Below the pieces are notes generated by a model. The model was not told the DNA's origin and did not search any database. It saw only the letters and a program-made list of their open reading frames with translations. DNA of 43,681 bases from positions 1 through 43,681 of the forward strand of contig MEWP01000042.1 in assembly GCA_001775395.1 (NCBI GenBank), written 5' to 3'. This DNA is from a candidate division Zixibacteria bacterium RBG_16_53_22 (GTDB lineage: Bacteria; Zixibacteria; MSB-5A5; UBA10806). Below, one piece after another: positions 35,800 through 42,671 of the stretch. A program made the translations under genes and the position numbers. Every line of letters begins with the position of its first letter. The first letter of the stretch is position 1.

Positions 35800-36151
35800 G
35801 CCATTTAAGACATTCCTGATTATCTTGATTTTAATTGTGGCCGGGGTTGGCGCAATCTACATTGTCCAATCCCGGCGTCATTATACCCGTCGGATGCAGT
35901 ACGAACGGTTCGTATCGGCCTATGTGGCTCTTTCGATTGCGCGGGAAAAATATCCATCGTCCCCGGATTCGCTCTCGATGGCTTACGACAGCATCCTTGC
36001 CGCCCATGGGGTCGATTCCGCGTGGTTGAGCAGTTTCGCCGCTTCCTTGTCGGCAGATATTCACCAGAGCTCGCGGATCTGGGATAAAATAGTCGCACGG
36101 CTTGACTCTCTGAGGACTGCTTCGCAGCCCGATTCGACAAATACGAATTAA
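35789..36151 (+). CDS. Small membrane-anchored protein, DUF4296-like
   Basis: 120 residues: one N-terminal helix (about 7-26) then a helical domain outside the membrane. The stretch 'AYDSILAAHGVDSAWLSSF' followed by 'IWDKIVARLDSL' resembles the DUF4296 pattern of FCB lipoproteins (helix with I-x-x-x-x-G-V-[ST]-x-x-x-F, then I-Y-x-x-V-x-x-x-L), but here a membrane helix without a lipobox cysteine replaces the lipid anchor. The start overlaps the 3' end of the ppiD-like gene by 11 bases, suggesting a joint role in envelope protein folding. The stop overlaps the stop of yraN on the other strand. Confidence 0.7.
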   Translation: MAVRPFKTFLIILILIVAGVGAIYIVQSRRHYTRRMQYERFVSAYVALSIAREKYPSSPDSLSMAYDSILAAHGVDSAWLSSFAASLSADIHQSSRIWDKIVARLDSLRTASQPDSTNTN

Positions 36152-36516
36152 TCTTCGTCCAGGAAGAAGGCGCCTTCGAAATGCGTAATTTCGGGAGGTT
36201 TCCCGCGTGGCCATAGAATCGAGATCACGTCGAACCGCACCTCCTCGGGGGGTGTTTCGAGAGCAGACAGGTATTGCGATGCCGCCGTTGCCAGCCGTCG
36301 CCGTTTGGTCTTGTTGACCCTGGCCTCAGGTGGCCCGAATAGTTCGCTTCTGGAGCATTTGACCTCGACGAAAACCAGGCAGCCGCCCTTTCCGGCAACG
36401 AGATCGAGCTCATAATTCTTGTACCGCCAGTTGACGGCTCTTATTTCGTAACCGTTCGCCCGAAGATAAGACGCGGCAACTCGTTCGGCCGCCGCGCCGG
36501 TCTGACGCTTGTTAAT
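36148..36516 (-). CDS. yraN: UPF0102 (YraN) nuclease-fold protein with an ATT start
   Basis: 122 residues translated from ATT at 36516-36514. The family pattern is clear: 'QTGAAAERVAASYLRANGYE', 'NWRYKNYELDLVAGKGG', 'LVFVEVKCSRSELFG', 'KTKRRRLATAASQYL' and 'RFDVISI'. The E-x-D-L and E-V-K residues are the PD-(D/E)XK-like core. YraN proteins are thought to act on DNA, but their role is unsettled. There is no ATG, GTG or TTG before the conserved region: upstream in frame lie only GCA, AGG, AGA, GGG and then a stop. The ATT overlaps the TAA stop of the preceding gene (ATTAA), with GGGAGAAGGG directly upstream, so coupled initiation at AUU is likely. It is last in the operon. Confidence 0.85.
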   Translation of the reverse strand: MNKRQTGAAAERVAASYLRANGYEIRAVNWRYKNYELDLVAGKGGCLVFVEVKCSRSELFGPPEARVNKTKRRRLATAASQYLSALETPPEEVRFDVISILWPRGKPPEITHFEGAFFLDED

Positions 36517-36949
36517 TGCCCTTCTCCCTTATCAAATGCGATGCCGTCCAAACGACTGCGATTGCCAGGGTCACCCTGGCTACAATGATGACAAGGCCGT
36601 TGGCGCCCTGCGAGACAAAAAGAAGGGTGTCCTCGAAAACGGCGTGACACATGCCCAGAAAAAGCGCGATTAAAAACATCTGATTGCGGCCGATACGCCC
36701 GGAGTTCGATTCGCTTATCAGGACGCCCCCGCCGTAGGAGATACCGAATATGATCCCCGCCAATAAGGGGTATATTGATTCGGACTTGAATCCCAGGCGC
36801 CGGGCCAATGGATACACAGCCGATGTCAGCCGATCAAGCACCTTGAATTCCCTCGAGACCTCTAACACAATCATCAGCGGCACCACGATAGTGAAGACTT
36901 TGAATAGGAGCAGGAGTAAACCCGAGGCTGTGTCTATCAGGAATTCCAT
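36512..36949 (-). CDS. Nucleoside-recognition (Gate) membrane protein, SpmB-like half
   Basis: 145 residues, four or five hydrophobic helices. 'VFTIVVPLMIVLEVSREFKVL' near the start and 'LLAGIIFGISYGGGVLISES' (shown as AGIIFGISYGGGVL) in the middle are the signature of the nucleoside-recognition/Gate domain found in SpmA/SpmB, NupC-type carriers and FeoB. 'LGMCHAVFEDTLLF' is the conserved re-entrant-like motif. It pairs with the similar protein encoded four bases upstream, so the two probably form one inner-membrane complex. The transported or sensed ligand is unknown. The stop overlaps yraN. Confidence 0.75.
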   Translation of the reverse strand: MEFLIDTASGLLLLLFKVFTIVVPLMIVLEVSREFKVLDRLTSAVYPLARRLGFKSESIYPLLAGIIFGISYGGGVLISESNSGRIGRNQMFLIALFLGMCHAVFEDTLLFVSQGANGLVIIVARVTLAIAVVWTASHLIREKGN

Positions 36950-36953
36950 GATA

Positions 36954-37400
36954 TCAGGCCGGAATGATCAGGTTAAGGATCACACCGCAGATAAATGAAA
37001 ACGCCACCCTGGCCAAACTGATCCAGAGCGGTCGTGCGTTCATTTTGGCTAAGATGGCGCTTTCCATAATTTGTGAGTGGGAGACCCCCAGCATTATGGC
37101 CAAAATCGTGATTTGCCTGGCGGTAAGCTCCAGCCCGGCAATCACAGCCAGCGCCGCGTAGAGGTTGACAAATGAACCGGTCACATAGGCCAGCGCCGAT
37201 TCCCCCGGCAAGCCGAAATAGACCATGATCGGCTCGAATAAGCCGCTGACAAAATCTATTGCGGGGGTAAGTTTGAGCAGGGCCACAACTACGTAGACAG
37301 GTACCATTATGGCCGAAAGCTGAAGAAAGGCCCCGATCCCGCGCTTTACCCCAAGCGTCGCCGACGAATAAAGCCTCGCCTTATATGTGGCCTCGCTCAA
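36954..37400 (-). CDS. Nucleoside-recognition (Gate) membrane protein, SpmA-like half
   Basis: 148 residues with about four hydrophobic helices. It shows the same Gate-domain layout: 'LQLSAIMVPVYVVVALLKL', 'YVTGSFVNLYAALAVIAGL' and 'IMLGVSHSQIMESAILAKM', the last matching the motif G-x-S-H-x-x-x-E-x-x in SpmA-type proteins and the 'GMCHAVFEDTL' of its neighbour. The start codon is TTG (37400) with GGCGGA close upstream, 15 bases after the AroA-like gene. The two half-size Gate proteins likely assemble as a heteromer. Spore-maturation naming does not imply sporulation here. Confidence 0.75.
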   Translation of the reverse strand: MSEATYKARLYSSATLGVKRGIGAFLQLSAIMVPVYVVVALLKLTPAIDFVSGLFEPIMVYFGLPGESALAYVTGSFVNLYAALAVIAGLELTARQITILAIMLGVSHSQIMESAILAKMNARPLWISLARVAFSFICGVILNLIIPA

Positions 37401-37415: not shown

Positions 37416-38789
37416 TCAATTGGATTGGTTGTTGACCAATCGGTCGAAATCATCCCAGAAGGAGGGATAACTTATCTGAACGCACTCCGCCCCCTTAATG
37501 ACCGACGGGCCTTTGGCAATTAAGGCCGCTATCGCAAAAGCCATGGCAATCCTGTGATCGCCAAATGTCTCGATTTCGGCGCCATTGAGCTCGGTTCCAC
37601 CATCGATTGCCAATCCGTCCTCCAACTCGCCCACCTTCACGCCCATTTTCCGCAGGTTGGTAGCAATGCTCTTGATACGATCCGTCTTTTGCAGGCGTAG
37701 CTCATAGGCATCGCGAATTACCGACGTTCCCTGGGCCGCCGCCGCCACGATCGCCATGACAGGCAACTCATCGATTATGCTGGGAATAAGCTCTCCCACC
37801 ATCCTTCGCCCTTTGATGCTGGCCGATTTTATCTCAATTGAACCGACCGGCTCGAATCCGTATTCGCCGGTCTGTTTGATCGTTATCGGAGCCTTCATCT
37901 TTTTGAGGACCTCCACAAATCCCAGCCTGGACGGGTTCAGCCCGATGTCATCGACCCGGATTTCGCTGCCCGGCACCAACAGCCCCGCTATGATGAAATA
38001 CGATGCCGAGGAAAGGTCGCCCGGAACAAGAAGCGGTTTGGGAATCGCCTTTTGCCCTCCCCTGATGGCGAACATGTCCCCTTTGATGTCAGGGGAGACG
38101 ATGCCGGCTGCCTTCTTGAACCGCTTCGTAAGCGGATCCTCGGTCGACTGCTTGGGTTCCACCCGGCTCTTTTTGACCCTGATCCCGAAATAGGCCGCCA
38201 GTCTTTCAAAATGGTCACGGCTGGGTATCCTCTCGATAATCTCGGTTACGCCGCCGGCCAATAATCCCGCCAGCAGCAGAGTGCCTTTGACCTGGGCCGA
38301 TGACACCGGCATGGCATAGCGGATTCCGTGCAACGGGCCGCCCTTGATCTTGAGGGGAAATTTGAAATTGTTTGATTCGAAGGATGCCCCCATCTGCTCG
38401 AGTGGCTCGATTACGCGGCGCATGGGGAGGCCGGCTATCATTTCGTCGCAAACAAGCTCGGATTCGAAATCGCAAGCCGACAGGATGCCGCACAACATGC
38501 GCCCCGCGGCAATCGACATCTTGACATCGACCGGCTCGGTTGGTTTGCTTATCCCGGCGATCCCCTTACCATGGATTATGGTTTTATTGTCCCGGTGTTC
38601 GATCTCGACACCGAGTTGGCCAAGACAACTTAAAACCGCCTGGGCCTCCAGGCCTGTTGAGAAATTTCCGATCTCGACCGGCCCGTCGCATATGGCGGCC
38701 AGGATAGCGGCCCGATGTGAGATGGCGCTATCGCCGGGGATTCGGATTGTCCCCTTTAGATTTTTCGTTGGGTTGATTACTTTGTCCAT
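37416..38789 (-). CDS. aroA: EPSP-synthase family protein (AroA-like) with replaced PEP-site residues
   Basis: 457 residues with the full two-domain enolpyruvyl-transferase fold. Retained: 'SSAQVK' (163-168), 'GDLSSASYF' (257-265), 'IIDELP' with D340, and 'GDHRIAMA' (410-417). Changed: the N-terminal P-G-D-K-S-I-S-H-R is P-G-D-S-A-I-S-H-R (S21, A22); G-N-[AS]-G-T-x-x-R is K-M-S-I-A-A-G-R (90-97); the arginine of the R-P-M motif is L121; R-V-K-E-[ST]-D-R is R-L-Q-K-T-D-R (365-371). These are residues that in known EPSP synthases hold or act on phosphoenolpyruvate. An insert of about 27 residues sits near 205-250. I checked the codons at the changed sites. It may not be a working EPSP synthase. 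In an operon after argS. Confidence 0.85.
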   Translation of the reverse strand: MDKVINPTKNLKGTIRIPGDSAISHRAAILAAICDGPVEIGNFSTGLEAQAVLSCLGQLGVEIEHRDNKTIIHGKGIAGISKPTEPVDVKMSIAAGRMLCGILSACDFESELVCDEMIAGLPMRRVIEPLEQMGASFESNNFKFPLKIKGGPLHGIRYAMPVSSAQVKGTLLLAGLLAGGVTEIIERIPSRDHFERLAAYFGIRVKKSRVEPKQSTEDPLTKRFKKAAGIVSPDIKGDMFAIRGGQKAIPKPLLVPGDLSSASYFIIAGLLVPGSEIRVDDIGLNPSRLGFVEVLKKMKAPITIKQTGEYGFEPVGSIEIKSASIKGRRMVGELIPSIIDELPVMAIVAAAAQGTSVIRDAYELRLQKTDRIKSIATNLRKMGVKVGELEDGLAIDGGTELNGAEIETFGDHRIAMAFAIAALIAKGPSVIKGAECVQISYPSFWDDFDRLVNNQSN

Positions 38790-38840: not shown

Positions 38841-40553
38841 CTACATTATTTCCGGCGCTGTCAGGCCGAGTATTGTCAGGCCCGAGTGCAGAACATACCT
38901 GATGCTATCTATGAGCGCAATCCTTGATTCGGCCTTGCCGGCGTCGGCCGATATGATCCTATCATCGGGCGATTTGTATCTCTGATAATATGCGTTAAAC
39001 AGCCCGCATAATTCAAGCAAATAACTCGAAATATGAAAAGGCTCAAACTCCTCGGCGGCCTTGTCGATTATCTCGTGGAAATTGCCCAGTTTCTTGATAA
39101 TCGCGTATTCCTCCGGCAGAATCAGCAACGACGAATCGAACTTCTCGGATACGGCTCTGGCATATTTCCTTACAACGCTGCAGATTCTGGCATGGGTGTA
39201 TTGCAGATAAGGCCCGCTGTTGCCGCCAAAATCAAGCATCCTGTCCCAGTCGAACGATATATCCGTCTCACGCCGAAAGGCCAGGTCGGTGAACACCACG
39301 GCGCCGATTCCAACGGCGCGGGCGGTGCCTTCCGGGTCCGGCAGATCAGGCCTGCCTTTTCCGATAATCTCCCTGGCCAGCTTCACCGCCTTTGAGATGA
39401 CATCCTCGAGGAATACGATATTCCCCTTGCGAGTGGACATCATCTCGTCGCCGAGTTTCACCCATCCGAAACTGACATGATGACAGTCTTTCGCCCAGCT
39501 ACAGCCCAAAAGCTCCAGGACTTTAAATAGCTGCTGAAAATGCAGGGATTGGGCCACTCCCACCACATATAACATCTTATGAAATTTATAAGTTTCATTG
39601 CGATAAATGGCCGCCGCCAGGTCGCGGGTGGCGTAAAGCGTAGCATCATCGCTTCTTTTCACCAGCATCGGCTGCAGGCCAAACTTCTCCAGATCAACTA
39701 TGGTGGCCTCGCGGCTTTCTCTTAACAGCCCTTTATCATGTAGCAGCTTCTCGACCCGCGCATTCTTGTCGTTATAGAACGATTCGCCGGCCGTGGCCTC
39801 GAATTGTACTCTTAGCATGGCATAGATCTTGTCGAATTCCCGTTTGCTCAGGTCGGAGAACCTCTTCCACAACGCGAAATTCTCCGAGTCGGCTCCCTCC
39901 AGCTTGCGAAATTCCTCGCGCGCTTTATGGGTCAGCGATGGGTCCTTTTCTTCCTCCTGATGTATCCGAACATAGAGGTCATAGAGATGCTCGATCGGGT
40001 TTTCCTGAAGTATCCCATCATCGCCCCAGAGCTTATAGGCCAGTATGACTTTACCGAACTGCGTGCCCCAGTCGCCAAGATGATTGATGCCGACGACATT
40101 ATATCCCTGAAACAGGAATATCCGTTTCAACGCCGCGCCAATTACGGTCGACCTGAGATGCCCGATCCCGAACGGTTTGGCGATATTAGGCGATGAATAG
40201 TCTATCACCACAGTCTTGCCGAGCCCGATATCGCTCTTGCCGTAATTGTCGCCGCCCGCCCTGACTTCGCGGATTATTTCGGCGGCGATTTTTTCTCGCC
40301 GCAGGAAGAAGTTCAAATAAGGCCCGTTGGCCTGGACCCTTTCGACAAATTCGGTCGCCGTCATCTTGCCGGCTAATTCGGCGGCGATGGCCGCGGGAGA
40401 TTTCTTGTAGACGCGCGCCAGATGAAAACAGGGCAGAGCCAGATCGCCCATCTCCTCCGATGGCGGCGACTCGATCAAGCCGGTTAACTGCAATCTGTCG
40501 ACGCCGGTTGCGGCCGAAACCATCTCCGCTATATGGAATTTATATTGTCTCAA
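38841..40553 (-). CDS. argS: Arginyl-tRNA synthetase
   Basis: Class I synthetase of 570 residues charging tRNA-Arg. The N-terminal additional domain is followed by the HIGH-type motif in 'SPNIAKPFGIGHLRS' (121-135) and the KMSKS-equivalent 'MSTRKGN' (372-378), the form common in ArgRS that lacks the first lysine. The C-terminal anticodon-binding DALR domain includes 'GPYLQYTHARICSV' and 'FNAYYQRYK'. The start is TTG at 40553, overlapping the dapF stop (TTGA). A gap of 51 bases separates it from the AroA-like gene. Confidence 0.97.
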   Translation of the reverse strand: MRQYKFHIAEMVSAATGVDRLQLTGLIESPPSEEMGDLALPCFHLARVYKKSPAAIAAELAGKMTATEFVERVQANGPYLNFFLRREKIAAEIIREVRAGGDNYGKSDIGLGKTVVIDYSSPNIAKPFGIGHLRSTVIGAALKRIFLFQGYNVVGINHLGDWGTQFGKVILAYKLWGDDGILQENPIEHLYDLYVRIHQEEEKDPSLTHKAREEFRKLEGADSENFALWKRFSDLSKREFDKIYAMLRVQFEATAGESFYNDKNARVEKLLHDKGLLRESREATIVDLEKFGLQPMLVKRSDDATLYATRDLAAAIYRNETYKFHKMLYVVGVAQSLHFQQLFKVLELLGCSWAKDCHHVSFGWVKLGDEMMSTRKGNIVFLEDVISKAVKLAREIIGKGRPDLPDPEGTARAVGIGAVVFTDLAFRRETDISFDWDRMLDFGGNSGPYLQYTHARICSVVRKYARAVSEKFDSSLLILPEEYAIIKKLGNFHEIIDKAAEEFEPFHISSYLLELCGLFNAYYQRYKSPDDRIISADAGKAESRIALIDSIRYVLHSGLTILGLTAPEIM

Positions 40554-41392
40554 GGGGTGTATAATCCTGAAAACGCTATTTTTGTTTGGCCGACCTGATG
40601 AATCAGATTATCCTCGATATCCCATCGAGTAACAAGTGCCCCGCCCGGCATGACAACCCTGACATCCCCTCTGGTGAGCCCGAGCAAGCCGGTTATGACA
40701 GTGGCTGCCGCGGCGCCGGAGCCGCAGGCCGCAGTTGCCCCCGAGCCGCGCTCCCAGGGCACGACCGATATTCTGTTTTTCGATTCCACCCTGGTAAACA
40801 TCACGTTAACGCCGTTTTTGAATAACCGGTTTTTCTCTATCAGCAAACCTTCCGCCCGCCAGTCGAAATCGAAATTCTCGACCAAAATAACGGCATGCGG
40901 GTTCGACAGCGCCACGCAGTGAAGCGTGCGCCGGGCTCCTCTTACTTCGATTCTAATTCCCAGGCAATTGCCAACGTCGCCGGCAATGCCTATTTCGCGG
41001 CAGTCAAATGACGGCGATCCAAGATCCGCCCTGACGACCGCCGACCCGGCTTGAGCCTTAACAACCTCGATATTATAATCGCTCCAGCGCGTGAAAATGT
41101 CAAATTTCTTGTGCTTGCTCTTGTATGCCGCCCTCATGAAAAGGGCCATTCCCCGAAGCCCGTTGCCGCAGAATTTGGCCTCGGAACCGTCGCTGTTGAA
41201 AATCCGCATGAATGCCGACCCCGTTCCCAGCCTTTCAACAACGATCAGGCCGTCGGATCCGACACCCCGGCGACGATTGGAGATGGCGCGGGCCAATGAC
41301 CCCAGGCCGCAGGTTCTACGTGCGAGGGCGCCTTTGTCGACATAAATGTAGTCGTTACCGAGTCCCTCGATCTTTATAAAAGGTATGGGCAC
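40550..41392 (-). CDS. dapF: Diaminopimelate epimerase
   Basis: DapF converts L,L- to meso-diaminopimelate using a two-cysteine mechanism. C75 in 'FCGNGLRG' and C223 in 'GATAACGSGAAAA' are the catalytic pair; 'GLGNDYIYVD', 'RRRGVGSDGLI', 'SNPHAVILVE' and 'ERGSG' are further family motifs. At 280 residues it is normal. The start is a GTG at 41392, 12 bases after the aminotransferase stop. The product is the substrate of MurE encoded at 5749 and also the precursor of lysine. Confidence 0.95.
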   Translation of the reverse strand: MPIPFIKIEGLGNDYIYVDKGALARRTCGLGSLARAISNRRRGVGSDGLIVVERLGTGSAFMRIFNSDGSEAKFCGNGLRGMALFMRAAYKSKHKKFDIFTRWSDYNIEVVKAQAGSAVVRADLGSPSFDCREIGIAGDVGNCLGIRIEVRGARRTLHCVALSNPHAVILVENFDFDWRAEGLLIEKNRLFKNGVNVMFTRVESKNRISVVPWERGSGATAACGSGAAAATVITGLLGLTRGDVRVVMPGGALVTRWDIEDNLIHQVGQTKIAFSGLYTP

Positions 41393-41404: not shown

Positions 41405-42622
41405 TCAGTCCGCTTCTTTGACCACTTTCGCCAGGCGTTTTATGCCCTCGACAATGTTTTCCTCGGTGGCATTACAGAAATTAATGCGCAGGGTTGAATC
41501 ATCGGGCCTCTGGCTGAAAAAGTATTTGCCGGGAACATACGCGAGACCTGCTTTAAGAGCAACCGGCAGCATTTTCGAAGCCGAAATTCCATTCGGCAAC
41601 CTGACCCAAAGGAACAGACCGCCTTCGGGTTCGGTCCAGGTAGAGCCGTTATCGAGATACTTTCGAAGCGCATTGATCATGACATCGCGCCGACGGCCGT
41701 AGGCGTACTTGATCCTCTCGATATGTTCCTCGAGAGCGCCGTCTTTAGCGAACTCATAGACGACATACTGGGTGAAAGTCGTGCTGTGCAGGTCGCAGGC
41801 CTGCTTCATCTTCTCGCAAATCCCGATAAACTCCACGTCGGCCGCGATCCAGCCAACCCTCAGGCCGGGTGAGATGATCTTTGAGAAGGTGCCAAGCTGT
41901 ATGACGTGTTCCCCGCCCATGACCTTGAGCGACGGCACCGGGTTTCCCGAATAACGAAGCTCGCCGTAGGGGTTGTCATCGACTATTGGGACATCGTATT
42001 TTTTGGCCAGCGCGACCACGGCCTCGCGGCGCGATTTTGACATCGTAATTCCCGATGGATTCTGGAAATTGGGCACCAGATAGATGAAGACGGGCTTGTG
42101 CTCGCGTATTTTGTATTCCAGGTCATCGGGAAGCATGCCGCTGTCATCGGTCTTGACCGAGACGAAGTGAGCATCGTAAAACGAAAATGCCTGCAGGGCG
42201 CCGAGATAAGTCGGCTCCTCGGTTAAGACCACGGAACCGGGCTGGATGAATACCCGGCCGATAATATCGAGCCCCTGCTGAGAGCCCTGGGTAATCTGTA
42301 TGGCGTCAGGCGAAAAATCGAATCCGATTGTCGAAATGCGCTGGGCAATAAACTGCTTGAGCATGGGAACACCGGTGGTCAGCGAGTATTGAAGCGAATC
42401 CGGGCCATACTTCTCGAGCACACGAAGGCAGGCCTTTTGGATACCCTCGATAGGGAAAAGCTCCGGCGCTGGAAGTCCGCCGGCAAAGTTAATGACACCC
42501 GGTTTGGAGGAATCCTTGAGGATTTCTCTAATAATAGAGCTCTGGAGATTTTTGGCTCTTTCGGAAAATTGCCATCTATTCAATAGCTGCCCCACATGTT
42601 CTAATATATCGCCTTCAGACAT
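41405..42622 (-). CDS. PLP-dependent aminotransferase, LysN/ARO8-like (fold type I)
   Basis: 405 residues of the class I/II aminotransferase family. The PLP lysine is K248 in 'GTFSKIISPGLRVGW'; 'YLVPNFQNPSGITMS' (N188) and 'VDDNPYGELRY' are the cofactor-ring motifs; an arginine near the end in 'STLRINFCN' binds the substrate carboxylate. This subgroup contains 2-aminoadipate, aromatic and branched-chain aminotransferases. Position ahead of dapF makes an LL-DAP or lysine-related role thinkable, but the sequence is not of the DapL type and I cannot fix the substrate. I chose the ATG at 42622 over a GTG three bases earlier; AAAGGTGGG lies upstream of both. Confidence 0.88.
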   Translation of the reverse strand: MSEGDILEHVGQLLNRWQFSERAKNLQSSIIREILKDSSKPGVINFAGGLPAPELFPIEGIQKACLRVLEKYGPDSLQYSLTTGVPMLKQFIAQRISTIGFDFSPDAIQITQGSQQGLDIIGRVFIQPGSVVLTEEPTYLGALQAFSFYDAHFVSVKTDDSGMLPDDLEYKIREHKPVFIYLVPNFQNPSGITMSKSRREAVVALAKKYDVPIVDDNPYGELRYSGNPVPSLKVMGGEHVIQLGTFSKIISPGLRVGWIAADVEFIGICEKMKQACDLHSTTFTQYVVYEFAKDGALEEHIERIKYAYGRRRDVMINALRKYLDNGSTWTEPEGGLFLWVRLPNGISASKMLPVALKAGLAYVPGKYFFSQRPDDSTLRINFCNATEENIVEGIKRLAKVVKEAD

Positions 42623-42671
42623 CACTTAACCCACCTTTAAATACGTCAGAAACACTCTTAAATCCAGGGGA

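Follow-up and report, generated by a model that had tools for sequence, protein, structure and literature searches.

The AroA homologue encoded in the window, i.e. the whole stretch of 43,681 nucleotides that was analysed, has the fold of an EPSP synthase but not its catalytic residues. Our preferred reading, which we consider reasonably probable, is that this protein is a pseudoenzyme and that the AroA linked to argS in its class (AroA1), while still catalytic, already had a second role, in binding rather than catalysis. AroA1 is probably retained for this second, non-enzymatic job. In the following, AroA2 denotes a second AroA encoded in a compact aro operon. The window belongs to family f1, which together with f2 represents its order; G and L numbers denote genomes and loci.

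The open reading frame is intact, starts with ATG and encodes 457 residues. In profile searches it matched the aroA model TIGR01356 with 339 bits (cut-off 287) and PF00275 with 332 bits, and its identity to EPSP synthases of solved structure is 38-39%. Its AlphaFold model has a pLDDT of 93.5, with the EPSP synthase 3slh as the top PDB match (TM 0.90). Thus similarity to EPSP synthase extends over the whole length, in sequence as well as in fold. With the MurA model it scored 61 bits, far below the cut-off of 393. Sequence patterns fitted closely to the window protein retrieved only distant AroA of other phyla from the genome collection.

Alignment to E. coli AroA, used for numbering only, revealed the replacements K22 to S21, S23 to A22, N94 to M91, G96 to I93, T97 to A94, R124 to L121, K340 to Q367 and E341 to K368. 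The protein and the affected codons are located as follows.

37416..38789, minus strand: AroA1, probable pseudoenzyme, EPSP synthase fold with catalytic residues lost, 457 residues (profile, alignment, AlphaFold)
38724..38729, minus strand: codons of S21-A22, in place of the PEP/S3P-binding K22-S23 (alignment to E. coli AroA)
38508..38519, minus strand: codons of M91-S-I-A94, in place of the N-(A/S)-G-T loop (same alignment)
38427..38429, minus strand: codon of L121, in place of R124 of the RPM motif (same alignment)
37686..37691, minus strand: codons of Q367-K368, in place of K340-E341 (same alignment)

The same substitutions are apparent against the PDB chains 3rmt and 3tr1. All of these PEP-binding and catalytic residues (K22, S23, N94, G96, T97, R124, K340, E341) are lost in five out of five f1 genomes, and because the losses are common to all five they are not chance changes. 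R27, R100, Q171, D313, R344, H385 and R386 (E. coli numbering) are retained in the window protein; D313, H385 and R386 are additionally lost in its f1 relatives G003 and G004. The first-pass annotation had described an intact 457-residue EPSP synthase homologue with replaced PEP-site residues, and reading frame, profiles and alignment agree with this. Its claim that the GN(A/S)GT loop is replaced also stands, with a correction of register: the canonical GNSGT pairs with K90-M-S-I-A94, one residue before the MSIAAG quoted there.

A separate observation concerns the GDHR motif (window residues 410-413). In G003, G004, f6, f12 and f19 its catalytic His has become Pro and its Arg is variable. This replacement arose separately in several stripped lineages, as if the helix start were stabilised once catalysis is irrelevant.

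In the window's genome, which is 96% complete, AroA1 is the only AroA, besides a MurA-like protein on contig C110. Neither aroB nor aroC nor aroE was found there or in any of the nine genomes (9/9) of the order, two of them single-contig; the relatives are mostly draft assemblies, and these absences rest on the agreement between genomes and on the single-contig ones. The rest of the pathway that would accompany an EPSP synthase is thus not present in this genome. Since these three genes are missing and the only AroA is stripped, the window protein is not an ordinary EPSP synthase. The earlier claim that EPSP synthase function is gone is thereby supported, as far as catalysis can be judged from sequence. 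The search for a second aroA, which the first-pass annotation had proposed, found none; the reading as an ordinary EPSP synthase attached to that outcome nevertheless fails, since the remaining pathway is missing too. An annotated aroA is therefore no proof of aromatic prototrophy: the aroA model labels the window protein an EPSP synthase in a genome without the shikimate pathway.

The gene is part of a run on the minus strand, given here in the order of transcription.

41405..42625, minus strand: PLP aminotransferase of class I/II (profile searches and locus comparison)
40550..41392, minus strand: dapF (profile search and locus comparison)
38841..40553, minus strand: argS, immediately upstream of AroA1 in all degenerate loci in which that side was read
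36954..37400, minus strand: Gate-domain protein A, downstream of AroA1 (profile search and locus comparison)
36512..36949, minus strand: Gate-domain protein B (profile search and locus comparison)
about 36148..36480, minus strand: yraN-like gene, which ends the run (tblastn match with the YraN-like protein of G002 at 54% identity)

AroA1 begins 51 bases after the end of argS and thus is argS-linked. The first-pass annotation named the neighbours (aminotransferase, dapF, argS, two Gate proteins) correctly; the yraN-like gene, which was missing from the list of open reading frames, follows them and closes the run. In f3, f8, f9, f11, f17 and f18 the same site is occupied by a large aromatic cluster, with the order trp genes, argS, (tyrA), aroG, aroA, aroE, (Gate A, Gate B), aroK, aroB, aroQ, of which variations exist. 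The window arrangement reads as this cluster minus all aromatic genes but aroA, AroA1 and argS being adjacent because the intervening genes were deleted. The position of argS, and in some families also of the two Gate membrane proteins, inside a trp/aro cluster (L078, L079, L110, L112, L119, L120 and others) is an unusual setting for a tRNA synthetase gene.

To place the window protein, about 110 genomes of the class were compared. Judged by its residues, AroA1 appears to be of catalytic type in pathway-bearing families, whereas loss of the pathway or presence of AroA2 goes along with a stripped AroA1. Stripped or partly stripped AroA1 directly follows argS in f1, f2, f4, f5, f6, f7, f12, f15 and f19. 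The pathway is lost in the window's order, f4, most of f5, f12 and most of f19; a second aro operon with AroA2 exists in f6, f7, f15, one f5 genome and one f19 genome. Wherever aroC occurred together with a stripped AroA1 in the genomes read, a separate AroA2 was present (e.g. G013, G026, G037, G106); the f6 and f7 assemblies are more fragmented and yielded complete or partial AroA2. The AroA1 proteins of f6, f7 and f12 are highly divergent and were first detected as weak matches beside argS; that of f12 has 16% identity to solved structures, yet it models as an EPSP synthase fold. In f10, f13, f14 and f16 both AroA1 and the pathway are lost. The f13 argS locus without AroA1 (L134) still has dapF-argS-Gate A-Gate B (f10, f14 and f16 loci: L130-L136).

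The second operon of f5, f6, f7, f15 and f19 is compact, with tyrA-aroA-aroE, several with aroC, and then aroK-aroB-aroQ (L073, L076, L127, L128, L129, L185). The compared AroA copies of these loci group together in the tree, which may reflect horizontal replacement.

Catalytic residues were lost repeatedly. The ArgS tree requires six changes among the live, stripped and absent states of AroA1, and in the AroA1 tree the stripped f15 is sister to the live f3. A single clade of stripped AroA1, i.e. one paralogue, was rejected (AU p = 0.003; f1, f2, f4, f5, f15 and f19 tested), with long branches as a caveat. Exact origin counts are unsure; parsimony suggests about four origins, namely f1/f2/f4/f5, f15, f19 and f6/f7/f12. 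A phylum-level search found no second class for comparison.

Two segments outside the active site set AroA1 apart.

38076..38174, minus strand: AroA1-specific insertion, residues about 206-238, not found in AroA2 or in the compared outside-class AroA
38112..38138, minus strand: core motif of the insertion, D218-PLTKRFKK (alignment and conservation)
37803..37814, minus strand: AroA1-enriched basic loop K326-G-R-R329, found in live and dead AroA1 and mostly absent from AroA2

The insertion amounts to 20-30 extra residues in 61 of the 61 AroA1 compared, live or dead: the segment comprises 43-56 residues in these (53 in all f1 members) and 24-27 in six AroA2, nine outside-class AroA and E. coli. 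Thus it is limited to the argS-linked copy. Nor is it present in the best-matching EPSP synthases of the PDB: in 3rmt, three residues stand opposite query positions 209-239. In the AlphaFold model a helix (219-227) is predicted in the insertion with low confidence. The motif is roughly D-x-x-x-basic-basic, with the clade forms DELxRRL, DPRKK, DRREQLL and TLEGRLAK. In the most eroded lineages it stands out: DELxRRL is the best-conserved 7-residue window of the protein in f6/f7/f12, and DPxDPR(K/R) is the second best in f19. In the less eroded f1/f2 and in the live f3 and f9/f17/f18, many other segments are conserved at least as well. Only in some families does the insertion bear a clearly positive net charge. 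Position 329 is basic in 95% of family-weighted AroA1 vs 19% of others, and the KGRR loop occurs in all f1 members (its first residue is masked in one alignment row), as expected of the AroA1 group. R359 was dropped as an AroA1-specific residue; it occurs in other AroA of the same type, e.g. the Coxiella enzyme.

The first-pass annotation had suggested a new reaction or a regulatory role on a shikimate-phosphate-like ligand. A new reaction would be catalysed in a remodelled pocket. In f1 the equivalents of R27, Q171 and R344 are indeed invariant and S169 is S/T, and L121, Q367 and K368 are fixed and could mark a new site. However, other f1 pocket positions vary freely (K22: S/G/A/N; T97: A/I/P/S), the residues lost in G003 and G004 include the catalytic D313 and R386, and f6, f7, f12 and f19 retain hardly any ligand residues, with family-specific replacements. 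The 14 ligand columns, invariant (identity 1.00) in live AroA1 of f3, f9 and f18, have an identity of 0.60 in f1 vs 0.71 over all columns, and of 0.31 vs 0.38 in f19. The columns of the old site thus drift in stripped AroA1, which makes a new reaction in the same pocket less likely; this suggestion was not supported, and we regard such a neofunctionalised enzyme as unlikely. In f2 the ligand columns are above average (0.82 vs 0.68), in line with an early stage of loss: most catalytic residues are kept there and the Gly-Thr of the loop is changed. Weak residual or altered activity is possible, in f2 above all.

It is quite unlikely, too, that the protein has become a sensor or regulator and still binds a small molecule resembling S3P. 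The S3P phosphate contacts are partly retained in f1 and f2, but without aroB and aroE no S3P can be made, and the S3P residues are gone in other stripped lineages.

A remnant of the lost pathway that decays slowly and awaits deletion would explain the missing pathway, the eroded catalytic residues and the complete loss of the gene in some families. Against this stands strong purifying selection: for the pair G003/G004, the one unsaturated pair on which the estimate mainly rests (synonymous sites are saturated in other pairs), dN/dS was 0.077 for AroA1, 0.082 for argS and 0.129 for dapF, and live AroA of other families gave 0.07-0.11. The AroA1 protein is better conserved than the argS product in every f1, f2 and f5 pair tested, and less conserved in f12 (0.14 vs 0.05). 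Moreover, AroA1 frames have stayed open in nine deeply diverged families (about 40 genomes), and the gene was retained while aroB, aroC and aroE were all lost. The selection data largely refute slow decay, which is very improbable, and uphold the first-pass statement that the gene is not decaying. Loss of catalytic residues under purifying selection marks the window protein as a probable pseudoenzyme. In the AroA1 gene of G002 (L061, 9846-11192) a short internal stretch reads as unknown residues. That the window protein is an ordinary EPSP synthase with unusual active-site residues is scarcely conceivable: it is the sole aroA of its genome and passes the aroA model, but the equivalents of K22 and E341 are both lost, and no genome of the order has aroB, aroC or aroE.

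The reading that we prefer, a pseudoenzyme with an older second role, would account for these data as follows. The ancestral AroA1 would have been catalytically active as an EPSP synthase, its gene lying with argS in a supercluster for aromatic amino acids. Its second role would reside in the class-specific insertion between the two halves of the protein and perhaps in the basic loop of the second half. We infer three things here: the insertion is the element that functions, its role is binding, and this role is older than the catalytic loss. When the pathway was lost, or AroA2 took over catalysis, the active site would have become free to erode while fold, insertion and basic loop stayed. AroA2 could not have supplied the second role because it lacks the insertion, and the role would thus keep fold and insertion under selection. 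What counts against a second role is that the clade f10/f13/f14/f16 lost AroA1 entirely; the role would therefore be dispensable. The clade-specific forms of the motif, its unexceptional conservation in f1/f2, f3 and f9/f17/f18, the uneven charge of the insertion and the reliance of dN/dS mainly on one pair weigh against it as well.

Gene order and basic charge lead to the guess that ArgS or a tRNA is the partner. In that case AroA1 might use the insertion to dock onto ArgS or its tRNA and serve the translation machinery as a structural or regulatory partner, which is possible but doubtful. If true, AroA1 would be bifunctional in families with a working pathway and link aromatic synthesis to arginine charging. 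ArgS is the constant neighbour, yet the two genes became adjacent through deletion of those between them. A covariation test found no ArgS columns that distinguish the AroA1-less clade f10/f13/f14/f16 and thus gives no support for ArgS as the partner. Nor does the aminotransferase follow AroA1 in its occurrence, since it is kept in most of that clade. Together, these two results indicate no partner.

EPSP synthase is the glyphosate target and among the best-studied enzymes. Literature searches for pseudoenzyme or moonlighting forms of EPSP synthase, or for a link to ArgS, gave nothing relevant; we came across neither a dead form that is retained nor a second role. Repeated catalytic loss with the same extra segment kept amounts to a natural experiment that separates the catalytic from a hidden role and narrows the candidate region to about 30 residues.

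Compared with EPSP synthase (TIGR01356/PF00275), the window protein is alike in fold, length, domain order and most structural motifs. It differs in lacking the PEP-binding and catalytic residues and the pathway, and in having the extra insertion and the basic loop. With MurA, the UDP-GlcNAc enolpyruvyl transferase, it has the superfamily fold in common but matches far more weakly. In aromatic amino-acid supraoperons trp and aro genes are clustered, as they are here; the difference is that argS, and in some families the Gate genes, lie inside the cluster. Some pseudoenzymes persist by serving other proteins as partners or regulators, and AroA1 resembles these in its dead active site, conserved fold and retained gene.
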